From positions 1 to 40,771 of the forward strand of contig JAFGRO010000081.1 in the NCBI GenBank assembly GCA_016935095.1: a stretch of 40,771 nucleotides of DNA. The letters run 5' to 3'. The notes below the pieces were generated by a model. The model searched no databases. It saw only the letters and a program-made list of their open reading frames with translations, and had not been told where the DNA came from. Shown piece by piece: positions 13,518 through 21,719 of the stretch. The translations under genes and the position numbers were made by a program. The stretch is from Candidatus Woesearchaeota archaeon. GTDB taxonomy: Archaea > Nanobdellota > Nanobdellia > Woesearchaeales > GW2011-AR15. The stretch's first letter is position 1. Each line of letters begins with the position of its first letter.

Positions 13518-14264
13518 ATGAAAAAAAGGGCCCAGCTTACACTGATGATTATTATGGGGTTAGTAATTCTTTTAGTTGTTGTGGTTGTTGTTTTTAATAT
13601 TTATTTCTCCGGAAAAAGGCAGATTATAAATGAGCAGCCGGATGATATCCAGAAGTTATCTCCTGTAAAAAATTATGTTGAACAATGTCTTCAGACCACG
13701 GCAAAACAGGCGCTAATTAAACTCGGGAAACAGGGGAGGATTTATCCTTCATTATTCCTGCAGTCAGATGATGAAATAATTACTTATTTTTATTATAGAG
13801 GCGAGGGTTTTTTCCCAGCAAGCATTGATGTTCTTGAGCAGGACGTCTCAACTTATATAGAACAGAACATCGGATACTGCATTAATGATTTCTCTTTGTT
13901 TGCTTATGAAATTAATCATGAGAAAGAAAACATGAACATCCTGACAAATATCAATGAAAAAGATGTTACTGTATTAATGAAATATCCTTTGACTGTGGAT
14001 TTTGATGACACTCAACTTTCAATTTCTGATTTTAATGTAAAACTGAATCTGAACTTCCTGGATATATATGAGCTGGCTAATGAGATTTTTACAAAAACAA
14101 TGCATGAACCCGAATGGATTGATATAGAGTTTTTATCAAAACAGGCATATGAGATAAGATTAATAAGAATCAATTCAAATACACTTGTCTATGAAATAAA
14201 TGATAAAAAAGGAATTGATGGTGAAGATTTTATTTATAGATTTGCAATGAAATACGTGATGTAA
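13518..14264 (+). CDS. Pilin-like membrane-anchored protein, shares a module with the 18969-21719 protein
   Basis: A 248-residue protein with a short basic start (KKRAQLTL) and one long hydrophobic helix (residues 8-27). This N-terminus resembles class III (archaeal pilin-like) signals. The rest is extracellular in that model. Residues about 50-200 contain a Cys-bearing helix (YVEQCLQTTAKQALIKLG) and a later YIEQNIGYCINDF block, and both have clear counterparts in the N-terminal 130 residues of the 916-residue protein at 18969. The stop is 1 bp from the next ATG, so it is in an operon with the glycosidase-like protein. It could be a minor pilin, an adaptor or a membrane anchor. No catalytic motif is visible. 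Confidence 0.72.
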   Translation: MKKRAQLTLMIIMGLVILLVVVVVVFNIYFSGKRQIINEQPDDIQKLSPVKNYVEQCLQTTAKQALIKLGKQGRIYPSLFLQSDDEIITYFYYRGEGFFPASIDVLEQDVSTYIEQNIGYCINDFSLFAYEINHEKENMNILTNINEKDVTVLMKYPLTVDFDDTQLSISDFNVKLNLNFLDIYELANEIFTKTMHEPEWIDIEFLSKQAYEIRLIRINSNTLVYEINDKKGIDGEDFIYRFAMKYVM

Positions 14265-14265
14265 A

Positions 14266-17200
14266 ATGAAAAAAACAAAGTTAATTTTAGGAATTATTTT
14301 ATTTGCTTTAGTAATGAATCTGTCAAATGCAGAAGTAGATGATACTGAATGCGATACAATCCTTGCAGGGTATTCTTTTACCGGCTCCGGATATGGAAGC
14401 TGTACAGAGCTGGGTTTTGAGGGAAACAATTATCTCTGTAAGGAAAACACCAATTCCTATTTTTGTACAGGTTCAGAACAAGGTTTTTCAGAGGATAATA
14501 AAATATGCTTCCTTGTTTGCAGCAGCGGGTGCAGGGACGACGGCACATGCATTAATGGTCCGGTTCACATTGAAAAACCAGATGAATTAATCGATATTGA
14601 AGAATCAGTTTATACTGACATGGGGAATATTTACCTGTTTTTTGATTATTCAACATTCGGGCTTGAGGATTATTCAGGTTTTGCTTTATACGACGGCAAA
14701 GATCTGGAAATTGAATATAATGATAAAAAAATGATTATTAATATTGATTCTTTTAAAGAATATGCTCTGTCTTATTTTGATAGGATCTTAGTTTCAATTG
14801 AAGATGACTCGCTAAAAATAAGCTTAAAACAAGGATATAATAATGAAATCCTTTCATTCAAGCCTTTGGATAATATCCCAACAACAATTTATTACGGAAA
14901 ACAAAATCCTGACGAGCATACAGAAGATTCAATTGTTTATGTTGTTGAGCATGAAAGAACAGGAGATGATTCAGGAAATTATTTAGATGCAATCTCAAAT
15001 AAAAAAGCAGATTTAATCATTACAAATAACGGCATTAAATTAAAAATACTGAAACAGGGTGAGGTCCGGCTTTCAATAGAGACTATTTTGAATAATAAAT
15101 ACCTTGAAGAAAATTTCAGGGAAATTAATGTGATTAATGTAATTGATAATGCAAGGGGTGTCCTGGAATTCTTTTCCAATGACCTTAGCAGGTTGGTAAT
15201 TTTAAGATTTACAGATTACCTGATCAGTGAAGTTGCAGACAGGTATTTTATTGCACAGGAAGAATCCACTCCTCTTGTAATATTTAATTCTGAAGATGAA
15301 TTCAGGGATGCTTTTTCAGGAGAAGAGATAACAGAATGCAATGGAAGCTTTAAATGCTATATAAGGATAGATGCAGATGAAGAATTATGCTATTGCAGTG
15401 CAGAATATGATTCAGAGGATAATCTGAAATGGGCATGGAGAACAAAAGACAATACAGAATGCACTCTTGAAGGGATAAGCCCTGAAGATTACCAGGATGC
15501 TTCCCAGGAATGGCCTGTTGATTGCTGTACACAGGAATTAAACTGCAGGGAGTCTGTTTGTCCTGTTTTTGATAAGCCGGATTATATGATTGCCTCTCAA
15601 CATGAATGTTCAGAAAGCTGGTGCTGTGACCTTAATGATAATATTATCTGTTATGAAAGAGATGATAAACTGGTTGTAAGAGTTGAATCTTATAGCCCTT
15701 ATGCATGGGTGATTACCAGGCTAAATGAAGAAATACAGGATGAAACTAATCCCGGAAGAGGAATTCCCCAAGATGATCAGAAATTGATGGGCAGAGAGGA
15801 CATTGGGGATATTAAAAGATGGTGGTGGGAATGGGAAATTGATAAAGCAGAGCTGGAGCAGGGACAGAACTTAATTTATTTTTTTAAGGATGCAGATAAT
15901 GATATTTTGGATTATGATACAAAAAATTGTCTGAGAACAGGGTTTTATTATGAGGAGGGTGTTTTTTCATCTTTGGAAAAGGATTTTGATTTTCCTGAAT
16001 ATGAATATGACATTGAAGAGCCAGAAGAAGAGCAGCCTGAGGAAGGAACATTAGTAGGTTATATTGAAGGCATAGCTTTAGGAGGGCAGGTAGTAAGTGA
16101 AACTAATTATCCTGCTGATGCTATGAAATATAGCTGTATGAACTGGGTCAAACATCAGGTAATATATACTAATAATGATTATGAGAGGGCAATTGACAGG
16201 CAACATTTAATTAACAGAACACATGAAAATGGTATGAAAGTACTGTTAAGTGTTGTAGGTACAGACCATGATGTTATGAAACAGGATTTTGACACTTATT
16301 TTGACAATTATGCAGAGTTTGTTGCTGATTTGGCAGCTATGGGAGCTGATGCAATTGAAATATGGAATGAGCCTAATATTGATAATGAGTGGCCTTCAGG
16401 ATACATCTCTGCAGAGTTGTTTAGCCAGCTTTTGCAGAAATCCTATTTCAGAATAAAATCAGCAAATCCCGATACAATTGTTATATCAGGGGCACCCGCG
16501 CCGACAGGGTTTTTTGGCTCAATATCCGCAAACGGCGCTGATGATAATCTCTGGATACAGGCATTAGAAGATAATGGTGCAGATAATTACCTTGATTGTG
16601 TAGGAGTTCATTATAACCAGGGCGCCACATCCCCTTCTTCAACAACAGGGCATCCTTATGGTGACCATTATTCGTATTATTTTTCAGAGATGGTTGAGCT
16701 ATATTCAAATACTTTTCCAGGAAAGCCTTTGTGCTTTACAGAACTGGGATATGTTTCCAAAGATGGATATGCAGATAGTCTTCCTGAAGGATTTTCCTGG
16801 GGCAATCACATTACTGTAGATGAGCAGGCAAACTGGCTTAAGCAGGTTGTGGAAATTTCATCTTTAAATGATAAAATAGATATGCTCATTGTATGGAATG
16901 TTGATTTTTCTGATTTTGGAGATGATCCTAAAGGAGGATATGCTATAATCAGACCAAGTGGCTCTTGTCCTGCCTGTGATGAGTTGAACGGCATTTGTGT
17001 TTTTGAAGAGGATCAAGGGTCTTCTGAAATGTCTGGAGAAGACACTTCAACTGGAGAAGAAGAACCAGTAAAAGGGGATGACTCATTACAAGGTCCAATG
17101 TATTTGCCCGTTGAATTAATTCCGGATGTTCCGGACTGTGAGCCATTGTCAGGAGGAGCTGACTGCAGCAATCGATGCAACTATGACTCAAGATGCGACC

Positions 17201-17622
17201 CAAACTGGGACGGGAGAAAACATTTTAATTTATGTGCTAAATCAGAAGGTCATTGTGTGCAATGTGTTGATTATGCAGATATAGGCATAAATTGGAAGAT
17301 GGGTTGCGAGCAGGGTATTACCTGCCATTCTATATTTAACTGGTGTGAAGGCACGCATTATCATCAGGAATATTATAACGGCGAATGGATTACACTTTTG
17401 GGAGACGGATGCCTCAGAGATGATGAATGTGAATGGAAGTTTTCAGATGGGTGGTCTAGAACATGTGATTCAGGAAGAGGGTTGTGCATTGAGCATTGTA
17501 CAGGTGCAACTGAAGGCCCTGATGAGGCATGCAGGATCCATTTTGGTGAAGGATGGGCATGCGACCATGAACTTGATATGTGCATTAAGGAAGGGAATAA
17601 AAAAATGTCTGTGACTGATTAA
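14266..17622 (+). CDS. Large secreted protein with clan GH-A glycosidase core and Cys-rich regions
   Basis: An 1118-residue protein with a Sec signal (MKKTKLILGIILFALVMNLSNA). Residues 25-100 and 350-480 are Cys-rich. Residues about 600-900 form a TIM-barrel glycoside hydrolase of clan GH-A. The acid/base is Glu702 in IEIWNEPN and the nucleophile is Glu826 in CFTELGY. This spacing suits GH39- or GH5-like enzymes, which act on beta-linked sugars. LIVWNVDF provides the last barrel strand. The C-terminal 160 residues are a second Cys-rich module with spaced Cys pairs (CSNRC, CVQC, CRDDEC-like), probably disulphide-bonded. The substrate cannot be told. Pairing with a pilin-like protein suggests surface display. 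Confidence 0.82.
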   Translation: MKKTKLILGIILFALVMNLSNAEVDDTECDTILAGYSFTGSGYGSCTELGFEGNNYLCKENTNSYFCTGSEQGFSEDNKICFLVCSSGCRDDGTCINGPVHIEKPDELIDIEESVYTDMGNIYLFFDYSTFGLEDYSGFALYDGKDLEIEYNDKKMIINIDSFKEYALSYFDRILVSIEDDSLKISLKQGYNNEILSFKPLDNIPTTIYYGKQNPDEHTEDSIVYVVEHERTGDDSGNYLDAISNKKADLIITNNGIKLKILKQGEVRLSIETILNNKYLEENFREINVINVIDNARGVLEFFSNDLSRLVILRFTDYLISEVADRYFIAQEESTPLVIFNSEDEFRDAFSGEEITECNGSFKCYIRIDADEELCYCSAEYDSEDNLKWAWRTKDNTECTLEGISPEDYQDASQEWPVDCCTQELNCRESVCPVFDKPDYMIASQHECSESWCCDLNDNIICYERDDKLVVRVESYSPYAWVITRLNEEIQDETNPGRGIPQDDQKLMGREDIGDIKRWWWEWEIDKAELEQGQNLIYFFKDADNDILDYDTKNCLRTGFYYEEGVFSSLEKDFDFPEYEYDIEEPEEEQPEEGTLVGYIEGIALGGQVVSETNYPADAMKYSCMNWVKHQVIYTNNDYERAIDRQHLINRTHENGMKVLLSVVGTDHDVMKQDFDTYFDNYAEFVADLAAMGADAIEIWNEPNIDNEWPSGYISAELFSQLLQKSYFRIKSANPDTIVISGAPAPTGFFGSISANGADDNLWIQALEDNGADNYLDCVGVHYNQGATSPSSTTGHPYGDHYSYYFSEMVELYSNTFPGKPLCFTELGYVSKDGYADSLPEGFSWGNHITVDEQANWLKQVVEISSLNDKIDMLIVWNVDFSDFGDDPKGGYAIIRPSGSCPACDELNGICVFEEDQGSSEMSGEDTSTGEEEPVKGDDSLQGPMYLPVELIPDVPDCEPLSGGADCSNRCNYDSRCDPNWDGRKHFNLCAKSEGHCVQCVDYADIGINWKMGCEQGITCHSIFNWCEGTHYHQEYYNGEWITLLGDGCLRDDECEWKFSDGWSRTCDSGRGLCIEHCTGATEGPDEACRIHFGEGWACDHELDMCIKEGNKKMSVTD

Positions 17623-18968: not shown

Positions 18969-21719
18969 ATGGAAAAAAAGGGGCAGTTAGTCAGGTTTAT
19001 CCTTGTAGGGATTACAATCTTATTCCTGGGGCTTTTGATTATTAATTATTCACTTAAACAAAAATCAGAATTTATTAAATCCCAGCTTGCACGTGATGAT
19101 AAATTTTCATTAGATAAATTTAATCTGATGGAAACAATTAATGCCTGCCTTGAAAAGGAAACAAATAAAGCGATTTTAAATCTAGGGTTGGAAGATAACA
19201 ATAAAATAAAAGAATATCTTATTGATAATTTGCCTTCTTGTCTGGACCTGTCTTTTTTTGAATTAAAAGGTTTTTTTGTAGACCTTGATTTATTAGATGT
19301 TAAATCAGAAATAAATGATAAAGTCATCCTGGTTGAGTTATATGTCCCTTTGGAAATAAGAAGAGAAAATTCAATAAGCACACCTGTTGAAAAGATTTCC
19401 TATTCCCTGAAGATAAGCTCTTTGGAAAAGATCAATAATGGATATATTGATTCAGAGTCAAAGGTTTTTTCAACAAATAATAAACTTTCTCTGATTCTTG
19501 CATCTGGTTCAGAAGTGCAAGATAAAGAGGGCATGCCTGCAGATTCAATAAGCTGGAGACTTCTGGATAAGAATTTTGACGGAAAAGAACATAATCAGAT
19601 TCTGACACAGATTGTATATGAAGGAAATAGTGTCCGGTTCAGTTCTCCGGTTAGTTTAAGCATAGATTATGTTGATGTTGCTTTGCCTGATGGTTTTTAT
19701 GAAGAGAAATTAACAATAGCAGAATATAATCCGGCTACAAAAACATGGACACCTCTTATTTCAACAGTTGATGCGGGCGCAAAAACAGTTTCTGCTGAAA
19801 TTAATGAATTGGGTATTTACGGGCTGTATGTTAGCTGTGATGCAGAAGCATGGGATCCTGATGTTTCGGGTCATTATTCATCTATCTGTCCTCTTCCACA
19901 AACATGTGGCTGCCAGGAAGTGATAGACTTTGGAACTTTGTATGTCGGCGCACCTTATATAGATGTTGTTGATAGGTGCCCTGATCCGGCTGAAGTCCTT
20001 AGAGGAGAATGTGATCTTCAATGTGGAACCTTTGTTGGAAGTGTTTTTTTGGGTCTTTATGGAGATTATCTTACAGGAGATGGCGGTGAAAAATGTGATG
20101 ACCAGCCTGAAAAATTAATTCAATTGCCTTCTGATATAGACCTTATTCAGCCTGGAGATATATTTTCAGAACCCGGAATTCCAGGTCATACGGGATTCTA
20201 TGCAGGAAAAGGTTATGTTGAGAATCATCTTGGATCAATTATGTATGAGGCTTTTATTCCTGATCCTAATGGAGAAGATGTAATTCTTCATTCATTTCCT
20301 CCGAAACTTGGTTTTTCTTTACTATCAACTTATCTTATAATTAGAGGTAATCCTACTTTAAAATTTTGTCGATATAAACAATGTGAGAGTTCATCATCAT
20401 GTACAATTAACCTGTGTGGAACAAAGATCATAGAAATTGCACGGAGAGCATTAGGACATCCTTATTGTTTTAGACCCAATGAATGGCCTATTGAATCAAA
20501 TCCTCCCTTAAATGGATTATGTCCTGGTCATGTAACCAATGAGTTTTGTAGTGTTTCTGAATATGAATCATTAGCAGGTTCAACAGGAAAATGCCCAATA
20601 GACTGCAGCACATATGTAAAATGGGTAATTAATAATTATATAAAAGAAAATATTCAGGATGATTATGAAAGCCATAGTCTTGCACTCCATGGAATGCCTT
20701 CTTCTTTGGATTTAGGAAAAAATTATGGAATTACTGTTGACGGAGACCCGACAATAGGGCAATATTCTTCCTCGGATCATTATGATTTACATCTTGATAA
20801 TTTACAGGCAGGAGATTTAGTATTTTTTGCTAAGAGTTATTCTGGTTGGTTAATGGGACATGTTGCTATATATGCAGGCAGTGGAAAAATAATCCATGCA
20901 GCAGGTTCAGGTCCGGCAATTGGTGTTGTTGAATATGACTTAAACGATTACATTTCAATACTGGAAACAAGCGGTGAAGGGATATATGTAGGTGCAAAAC
21001 GGATTTGTCCTGAAGCAACAAGCCCCTCTGCTTCAGTAAGTACTGTTGATACAAGTACTTTTCCGGAATTGTTTTCATATTCATCAAAAAAAAATCAAAA
21101 CCTTGCAGAGGCATTATCGAATATTGGAACTGAATTCAGGAACAAGGGTGTGACTATTTCAAAAGAATTGCTGGCAGCAATACTATCAACATTGAGAAAA
21201 GAAGTAGGTGGCGCATTCCTTCCACAAGAAGAAACTGGTGATTATGGTATGGGGCCAGGATGCACCTACACAGGTTCATGCAGGGGCAGCCCTTATGATG
21301 CTTTTAAAGATGGGGATGGATTAGGTGGATTGGATTATAAAGGGAGGGGATATATCCAGATAACTCATAGGTATAATTATCTGGCACATTGTGGTGAGGA
21401 ATGTGTAGCAGACCTGGATTCTGACAGGAATTTATGCAAATGCAATAATAGAAAATATTGTGAAGTGACTGATGAAAATATTTGTCCAATGGTAAAAGCT
21501 ATGAAACCAGAATACGCAGGTAAGATTTTTGTTAGTTATTATTTAGAAAAAAACCTTGTAGAAAAATCTAATTCAAAGGATTATGTAGATGTTGGCTATA
21601 GAATTAATGGAGCTATGTCTTATGGATATGCATTCAATAATATTGCACAGGAATATATTACACTATTTGAAAATCATCCGGATAAAACAAATGCTCTTTT
21701 GACAATATTAAATTCTTGA
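18969..21719 (+). CDS. Pilin-anchored multidomain cell-wall hydrolase (two NlpC/P60-like domains plus GH19/lysozyme-like domain)
   Basis: A 916-residue extracellular protein. Residues 1-27 are a pilin-like start (MEKKGQL plus hydrophobic helix). Residues 40-140 match the stand-alone protein at 13518. Residues about 170-290 are beta-rich, ending NELGIYGLYVS. Two NlpC/P60- or CHAP-like domains follow: Cys352 in LQCGTFV with His407 in GHTGFYAG, then Cys546 in IDCSTYV with His631 in GHVAIYAG and His643 in IIHAAGSG. The C-terminal part (about 700-916) resembles GH19 chitinases and phage endolysins, with Glu745 in RKEVGG and YKGRGYIQITHRYNY at 790. This set cuts bacterial peptidoglycan, which archaea lack. 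It is probably used against or for attachment to bacteria (inference). Confidence 0.85.
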   Translation: MEKKGQLVRFILVGITILFLGLLIINYSLKQKSEFIKSQLARDDKFSLDKFNLMETINACLEKETNKAILNLGLEDNNKIKEYLIDNLPSCLDLSFFELKGFFVDLDLLDVKSEINDKVILVELYVPLEIRRENSISTPVEKISYSLKISSLEKINNGYIDSESKVFSTNNKLSLILASGSEVQDKEGMPADSISWRLLDKNFDGKEHNQILTQIVYEGNSVRFSSPVSLSIDYVDVALPDGFYEEKLTIAEYNPATKTWTPLISTVDAGAKTVSAEINELGIYGLYVSCDAEAWDPDVSGHYSSICPLPQTCGCQEVIDFGTLYVGAPYIDVVDRCPDPAEVLRGECDLQCGTFVGSVFLGLYGDYLTGDGGEKCDDQPEKLIQLPSDIDLIQPGDIFSEPGIPGHTGFYAGKGYVENHLGSIMYEAFIPDPNGEDVILHSFPPKLGFSLLSTYLIIRGNPTLKFCRYKQCESSSSCTINLCGTKIIEIARRALGHPYCFRPNEWPIESNPPLNGLCPGHVTNEFCSVSEYESLAGSTGKCPIDCSTYVKWVINNYIKENIQDDYESHSLALHGMPSSLDLGKNYGITVDGDPTIGQYSSSDHYDLHLDNLQAGDLVFFAKSYSGWLMGHVAIYAGSGKIIHAAGSGPAIGVVEYDLNDYISILETSGEGIYVGAKRICPEATSPSASVSTVDTSTFPELFSYSSKKNQNLAEALSNIGTEFRNKGVTISKELLAAILSTLRKEVGGAFLPQEETGDYGMGPGCTYTGSCRGSPYDAFKDGDGLGGLDYKGRGYIQITHRYNYLAHCGEECVADLDSDRNLCKCNNRKYCEVTDENICPMVKAMKPEYAGKIFVSYYLEKNLVEKSNSKDYVDVGYRINGAMSYGYAFNNIAQEYITLFENHPDKTNALLTILNS

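Follow-up and report, generated by a model that had tools for sequence, protein, structure and literature searches.

A predicted surface-anchored archaeal protein with three peptidoglycan-hydrolase-type domains in the Woesearchaeales

The window, by which we mean the whole 40,771-nucleotide stretch that was analysed, encodes a 916-residue archaeal protein in which a prepilin-like N-terminus is followed by two NlpC/P60-type domains (A and B) and a divergent GH19-like domain (C). We think it likely that this protein is tethered at the cell surface and breaks down the peptidoglycan of bacteria that it contacts; its activity, outward topology, bacterial target and purpose are what we infer here. 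The explanation is supported by the conservation of catalytic residues in all three domains and by the single membrane segment. The gene is one complete open reading frame without interruption, and every residue that a first-pass annotation of this DNA had picked out is in place in its translation (C352, H407, C546, H631, H643, E745 and the motif YKGRGYIQIT, which begins at Y790). That annotation had read the protein as a pilin-like anchor carrying two NlpC/P60-like domains and a GH19/lysozyme-like domain, a reading that the profile and fold matches described below bear out. The features of the gene and the basis for each are as follows.

18969..21719, plus strand: whole gene, 916-residue anchored, exported-type protein with three hydrolase domains (one unbroken open reading frame)
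18969..19049, plus strand: prepilin-like (class III) N-terminus, residues 1–27, MEKKG/QLVRF..., with one transmembrane segment (pattern judged by eye; hydrophobic peak window at residues 7–25)
18969..19844, plus strand: anchor plus a module common to many surface-type proteins, residues 1–292 (about 21–30% identity over residues ~1–300 in same-family genomes)
19899..20393, plus strand: domain A, residues 311–475, NlpC/P60-type cysteine hydrolase, C352/H407/H441 (profile, AlphaFold2 model, Foldseek, invariant triad)
20400..21038, plus strand: domain B, residues 478–690, NlpC/P60 cysteine hydrolase, C546/H631/H643 (PF00877 above cut-off; 56% identical copy in the same genus)
21039..21716, plus strand: domain C, residues 691–916, divergent GH19 endolysin-like, E745, E754, Q797, T799, I879-N880 (PDB profile, PHROG, AlphaFold2/Foldseek, conserved residues)

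The anchor and the two NlpC/P60 domains

The N-terminus, MEKKG/QLVRFILVGITILFLGLLII, matches the archaeal prepilin pattern as judged by eye, not by a signal-peptide predictor. Within residues 1–27 (MEKKG/QLVRFILVGITILFLGLLIIN) a prepilin-type site is followed by a hydrophobic stretch, which peaks at residues 7–25 and is the only strongly hydrophobic segment of the protein. Both marks of type IV pilin-like exported proteins, a prepilin peptidase motif and a hydrophobic helix, are present (KKG/QLVRFILVG...), and the sequence fits a prepilin-like protein whose pilin processing and assembly are putative. The N-terminal module as a whole (residues 1–292) has relatives in other genomes of the same family, in long proteins and often several to a genome. 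No Pfam family matches this region, and in the stretches of its relatives that were examined no Pfam family was found save for one marginal match. We read it as a module that serves surface display in general across the family. An impression that residues 166–292 resemble a ZU5-type sandwich found no backing in Pfam and is set aside.

Domain A is matched neither by PF00877 nor by any other Pfam model across residues 311–475. A profile built from seven sequences of the order matched CwlO NlpC/P60 structures (3.6e-4), and an AlphaFold2 model of the domain (mean pLDDT 89.5) retrieved the NlpC/P60 endopeptidases SagA, Acd24020, MepS and RipA in Foldseek with probability 1.00. The best ten Foldseek matches are all NlpC/P60-type peptidases, with TM-scores by target mostly between 0.57 and 0.75, and the fold matches include RipD, a non-catalytic NlpC/P60 protein. 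C352, H407 and H441 are invariant in all seven sequences, giving the Cys-His-His set of this fold; H441, the third member of the triad, was absent from the first-pass list. By sequence profile and predicted structure, domain A is an NlpC/P60 domain. It shares its fold and Cys-His-His residues with CwlO, SagA, MepS and RipA but differs from them in belonging to a divergent branch that escapes the Pfam model and that turned up in our searches in this archaeal order alone; the viral scans yielded no relatives.

Domain B is recognised directly by PF00877 (NLPC_P60; 42.3 bits against a curated cut-off of 23, E 7.9e-11) and resembles the CwlO, SagA, MepS and RipA endopeptidases in fold and in its Cys-His-His residues. 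Its triad of cysteine, histidine and polar residue is present as C546, H631 and H643; of four sequences aligned, one has serine instead of the cysteine. The closest relative, 56% identical and from a genome of the same genus, has this replacement of the catalytic cysteine; given such a loss within the genus, some copies of domain B may bind rather than cut. NCBIfam models added nothing beyond weak NlpC/P60 matches, and tblastn searches of phages and plasmids returned weak partial matches only. The same-genus relative with the Cys-to-Ser change, at L046:7835-9316, is fused to a Peptidase_C39_2 domain.

Domain C and the probable substrate

Domain C scores 15 bits against PF00182 (GH19), below the curated cut-off of 25.5, and its relatives reach 16.2 and 17.4 bits. 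Profile searches of the PDB placed a GH19 endolysin first (1.5e-5; best match 2.6e-4 with a seven-row profile), and the endolysin family phrog_181 was matched at 2.9e-7. The AlphaFold2 model has a pLDDT of 80.1 and is poor over about 30 residues (domain residues 66–97) directly past the second catalytic glutamate at domain residue 64. The top seven PDB structures retrieved by Foldseek are GH19-type chitinases and endolysins. The best of these, the endolysin 9ms7, was matched with probability 1.00 but with a modest E-value of 5.7e-3 and TM-scores of 0.50/0.61. Named viral fold matches are mostly GH19 lysins, lysozymes and predicted chitinases.

The active site can be compared with that of the muramidase PaGH19Lys, which comprises H50, E51, E60, Y103, Q127, T129, I187, N188 and R197 (PMC12329726). 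E745 and E754 of domain C are invariant in all seven archaeal members, and their spacing of nine residues equals that of E51 and E60 in PaGH19Lys (PMC12329726); E754, which the first-pass annotation had not named, is likely the second glutamate. When the remaining positions are mapped by motif and spacing, Q797, T799, I879 and N880 are retained and invariant in the seven archaeal sequences, while H50 is replaced by K744 and R197 by F889 in all seven; Y103 has no confident counterpart in this mapping. Because of these two replacements, the bond specificity of domain C could differ. Its predicted fold, glutamate spacing, Q-x-T motif and asparagine position are those of the GH19 endolysins PaGH19Lys (9EOI), SPN1S (4OK7) and PWe2 (9MS7), from which it is set apart by the His-to-Lys and Arg-to-Phe changes, by several conserved cysteines and by its fusion, on a chain with an archaeal anchor, to NlpC/P60 domains. 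Cysteines are also conserved in domain A, and in both domains they are as expected for an extracellular location. The domain so appears, on profile and model evidence, to be GH19-like with a clade-specific active site, below the Pfam threshold for GH19.

The GH19 assignment raises the alternative that domain C is a chitinase and that the protein degrades chitin or another glycan, the NlpC/P60 domains acting on other peptides or in binding, with a role in nutrition shared with a GH113-like enzyme encoded upstream. GH19 chitinases are indeed among the Pfam and PDB profile matches, and an exported glycosidase-like gene lies three genes upstream. Endolysins, however, head both the structural and the PHROG matches, the spacing of the two glutamates fits endolysins (PMC12329726), and the domains to which relatives are fused are peptidoglycan peptidases and amidases. 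Domain C is joined elsewhere to Peptidase_M23 (L043) or Amidase_3 (L065), domain A to M23 together with Amidase_3 (L052) or to SLT (L051), and domain B to M23 (L047). Since enzymes of peptidoglycan recur as fusion partners, peptidoglycan is favoured over chitin as the substrate, and we regard a chitin-degrading role as improbable.

Mur ligase domains are needed for the synthesis of both peptidoglycan and pseudomurein. The central Mur ligase domain (Mur_ligase_M) was not found in the host genome, which is 95% complete, and was present in 12 of 14 control genomes. Allowing for the 5% of the genome that is missing, the host therefore most likely makes neither polymer, and the substrate is probably foreign. 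The earlier claim that three peptidoglycan-hydrolase-type modules sit on one exported-type chain in an archaeon with no peptidoglycan of its own agrees with this result.

We give a slim chance to a display protein that has lost catalysis, its domains now being binders that keep the archaeon attached to bacterial walls. Consistent with this are the Cys-to-Ser copy of domain B in the same genus, the presence of RipD among the fold matches and the two active-site residues that domain C lacks. In the protein encoded in the window, however, A and B keep all their catalytic residues and C both its glutamates, and these positions are mostly conserved in the relatives.

Distribution, gene neighbourhood and a prepilin-like cluster

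Domain C was found in four of the 353 genomes of the order, that of the window included, and outside the order in a Micrarchaeota MAG, in another archaeon and on a contig binned as Methanothrix. In the contig scan a single 621-residue C-terminal query found no relatives, and an alignment of domain C found five loci in archaeal records. Among phages and plasmids, tblastn gave no match to domain C, and a viral scan gave one distant phage GH19. The copy on the Methanothrix-binned contig (L063:5902-7083) could reflect transfer or misbinning.

No other chain combining A, B and C was found among the 353 genomes. The protein is not an isolated oddity, however: 33 of the 242 genomes sampled from the order (~14%) have an NlpC/P60 domain, and several genomes bear other multi-hydrolase chains. 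The survey of related archaea that had been proposed recovers multi-hydrolase chains repeatedly and this exact arrangement once. In another genome of the order, one secreted chain (L052:4939-7011) carries an M23 peptidase, an N-acetylmuramoyl-L-alanine amidase and an NlpC/P60 domain, a second and distinct triple-hydrolase architecture. In the Micrarchaeota MAG (L065:4420-8160), Amidase_3 is fused to a copy of domain C, and the next gene opens with a similar amidase-like sequence. Three further secreted proteins (L044:5722-8409, L045:5017-7167 and L066:5731-7251) have domain C at the N-terminus and behind it a tract of numerous cysteine-rich repeats (CDPGYYLGTDGxCYP) that may be a binding tail.

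Eight genes on the same strand, separated by no more than 56 bases each, form the run to which the gene belongs. In order, these encode an archaeal-type CCA-adding enzyme, a prepilin-like protein, a 1118-residue exported protein, a VTT membrane protein, a small membrane protein, the 916-residue protein and a MoxR-VWA pair. Two of these neighbours are listed here.

13518..14264, plus strand: 248-residue prepilin-like anchored protein (MKKRAQLTLMII...; open reading frame translation, relatives elsewhere in the order)
14266..17622, plus strand: 1118-residue exported protein with a weak GH113-like glycosidase resemblance (PF22612, E 1.6e-4, under the cut-off), three genes upstream of the 916-residue gene

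The 1118-residue protein contains WNEPN and FTELG motifs of the type found in clan GH-A glycosidases. A homologue of its linker directly precedes the NlpC/P60 domain in the domain B relative L046 of the same genus (48% identity over 62 residues), which suggests, at the level of sequence, that domains are swapped on a common scaffold. Promoter- and terminator-like sites occur at about chance frequency. Elsewhere in the window, on the minus strand between 29521 and 40663, there are four large exported-looking proteins of 640–1124 residues that adjoin SecD/SecF-like genes and have almost no Pfam matches.

A further possibility is that the gene comes from a bacterial contaminant or that the assembly is chimeric. 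Such domains are typically found in bacteria and phages, and the genome (1.77 Mb) is a draft in 82 contigs. Among the matches found to the anchor module and to domains A, B and C, the closest nevertheless all come from the same archaeal order, from which we conclude that the gene is native, and it shares its same-strand run with the archaeal-type CCA-adding enzyme. Contamination is very improbable, and we rejected it on the kinship of all the domains.

Many hydrolase chains of the order are encoded by the gene that closes a cluster for small prepilin-like membrane proteins, and an RPA-like gene usually comes next (L047–L053, L057 and L058). A search of 338 genomes of the order recovered the terminal anchor subunit of this cluster in 255 (~75%), mostly in single copy, in listed open frames of 95 to 1770 residues, the shortest of which are perhaps clipped by contig ends. 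Its cargo is highly variable and may be absent, NlpC/P60, M23 or SLT-type; 28 genomes have an NlpC/P60 domain above the cut-off, and in at least 13 of them, by our own cross-comparison of the two surveys and of individual loci, that domain lies in the open reading frame of the anchor itself. In the genome of the window the cluster lies on contig C76 (G000:C76:42860-51416; L074:1864-10416), where the anchor frame is 199 residues long and lacks a hydrolase, and no significant Pfam family was found in this copy. The 916-residue protein, on which the catalytic domains sit instead, is encoded outside the cluster and has a different anchor; a relocation or an independent gain may account for this. 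Tentatively, and with considerable doubt, we suggest that the Woesearchaeales have a widespread surface machine, built on this cluster with its anchor of variable length in about three quarters of genomes, that would present wall-cutting domains to bacteria in some lineages and, in the lineage of the window, have them on a separate anchored chain. It would be a specialised archaeal apparatus for getting through the walls of bacteria that are touched.

Proposed mode of action and relation to known systems

In the model that we favour, a Woesearchaeota-type (DPANN) archaeon would export the 916-residue protein by its prepilin-type signal, and the prepilin-like N-terminal helix would keep it tethered in the membrane, from where it would degrade the peptidoglycan of bacteria that are touched. 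The GH19-like domain C would cut the glycan backbone as a muramidase and the two NlpC/P60 domains the stem peptides, so that together they might reduce the wall to soluble fragments or make a local hole. Tethering speaks for action at contact rather than as a diffusible toxin. Its purpose would most likely be to let a small cell that depends on a host prey on bacteria, or scavenge from them, on contact; feeding, killing and the opening of a passage are all possible. The roles of weapon, feeding tool and attachment device, which the first-pass annotation had offered together, are not separable from sequence. Its further suggestion of fusion with bacteria found no evidence in support and was dropped.

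Lytic transglycosylase and NlpC proteins of the VirB1 and CwlT type open the wall in bacterial conjugation. The same chemistry might here serve another purpose, the local opening of the wall for intercellular transfer or attachment, with a small gap letting a pilus, a DNA-uptake apparatus or a conjugation-like apparatus reach the membrane. Many NlpC/P60 relatives sit on the last subunit of the prepilin-like cluster, beside the RPA-like single-strand DNA-binding gene, and tethering would confine damage to sites of contact. Against this, the 916-residue gene is itself outside the cluster, the RPA gene may be a mere conserved neighbour, and among the window proteins that were scanned none was seen to be a secretion or conjugation ATPase. 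We hold such a transfer or attachment role to be possible but less likely than not. Bacterial plasmid proteins that join a lytic transglycosylase to a C40 (NlpC/P60) domain, such as those like CwlT, resemble the 916-residue protein in having glycan and peptide cutters on one chain; they differ in being bacterial, in having a lytic transglycosylase rather than GH19 and in having one NlpC/P60 domain.

DPANN archaea are considered dependent on other cells, with hosts known for few of them. A tethered protein with three catalytic domains suited to bacterial walls would point to bacteria as partners or prey of this group. It also provides testable candidates, in the single domains with clear catalytic residues and in the divergent archaeal GH19 branch, and a route to the order-wide surface cluster.

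Wall-cutting enzymes in archaea are already published, and the surprise at them implied in the first-pass annotation is outdated (PMC12352652; PMC9723730). Peptidoglycan hydrolases occur in ~5% of archaeal genomes and are prominent in Nanoarchaeota, a DPANN group, and two haloarchaeal enzymes kill bacteria (Strock et al., 2025; PMC12352652). Like those proteins, the one described here is archaeal and of exported type, and has peptidoglycan-hydrolase domains in a producer without peptidoglycan. It falls outside the modular definition used in that survey, which called for at least one wall-binding domain together with a catalytic one as recognised by Pfam (PMC12352652): no recognisable Pfam wall-binding domain was found in its 916 residues, where a prepilin-like membrane anchor is combined with three catalytic modules. 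GH23 lytic transglycosylases have been described in Woesearchaeota, the same archaeal group, where an attack on bacterial walls was likewise proposed (Vigneron et al., 2022; PMC9723730); the present protein differs in its families, NlpC/P60 and GH19-like, and in carrying several on one chain. What appears new, as far as the open-access literature was searched, is the anchored architecture with three catalytic domains and the archaeal GH19-like branch with its altered active site; the connection with a conserved cluster of pilin-like genes may be new as well. A parallel outside the prokaryotes is found in Trichomonas, which deploys against bacteria a set of laterally acquired NlpC/P60 endopeptidases and GH19 muramidases (PMC12612818), a non-bacterial pairing of the same two activities that is spread there over separate eukaryotic proteins and is here united on one archaeal chain.
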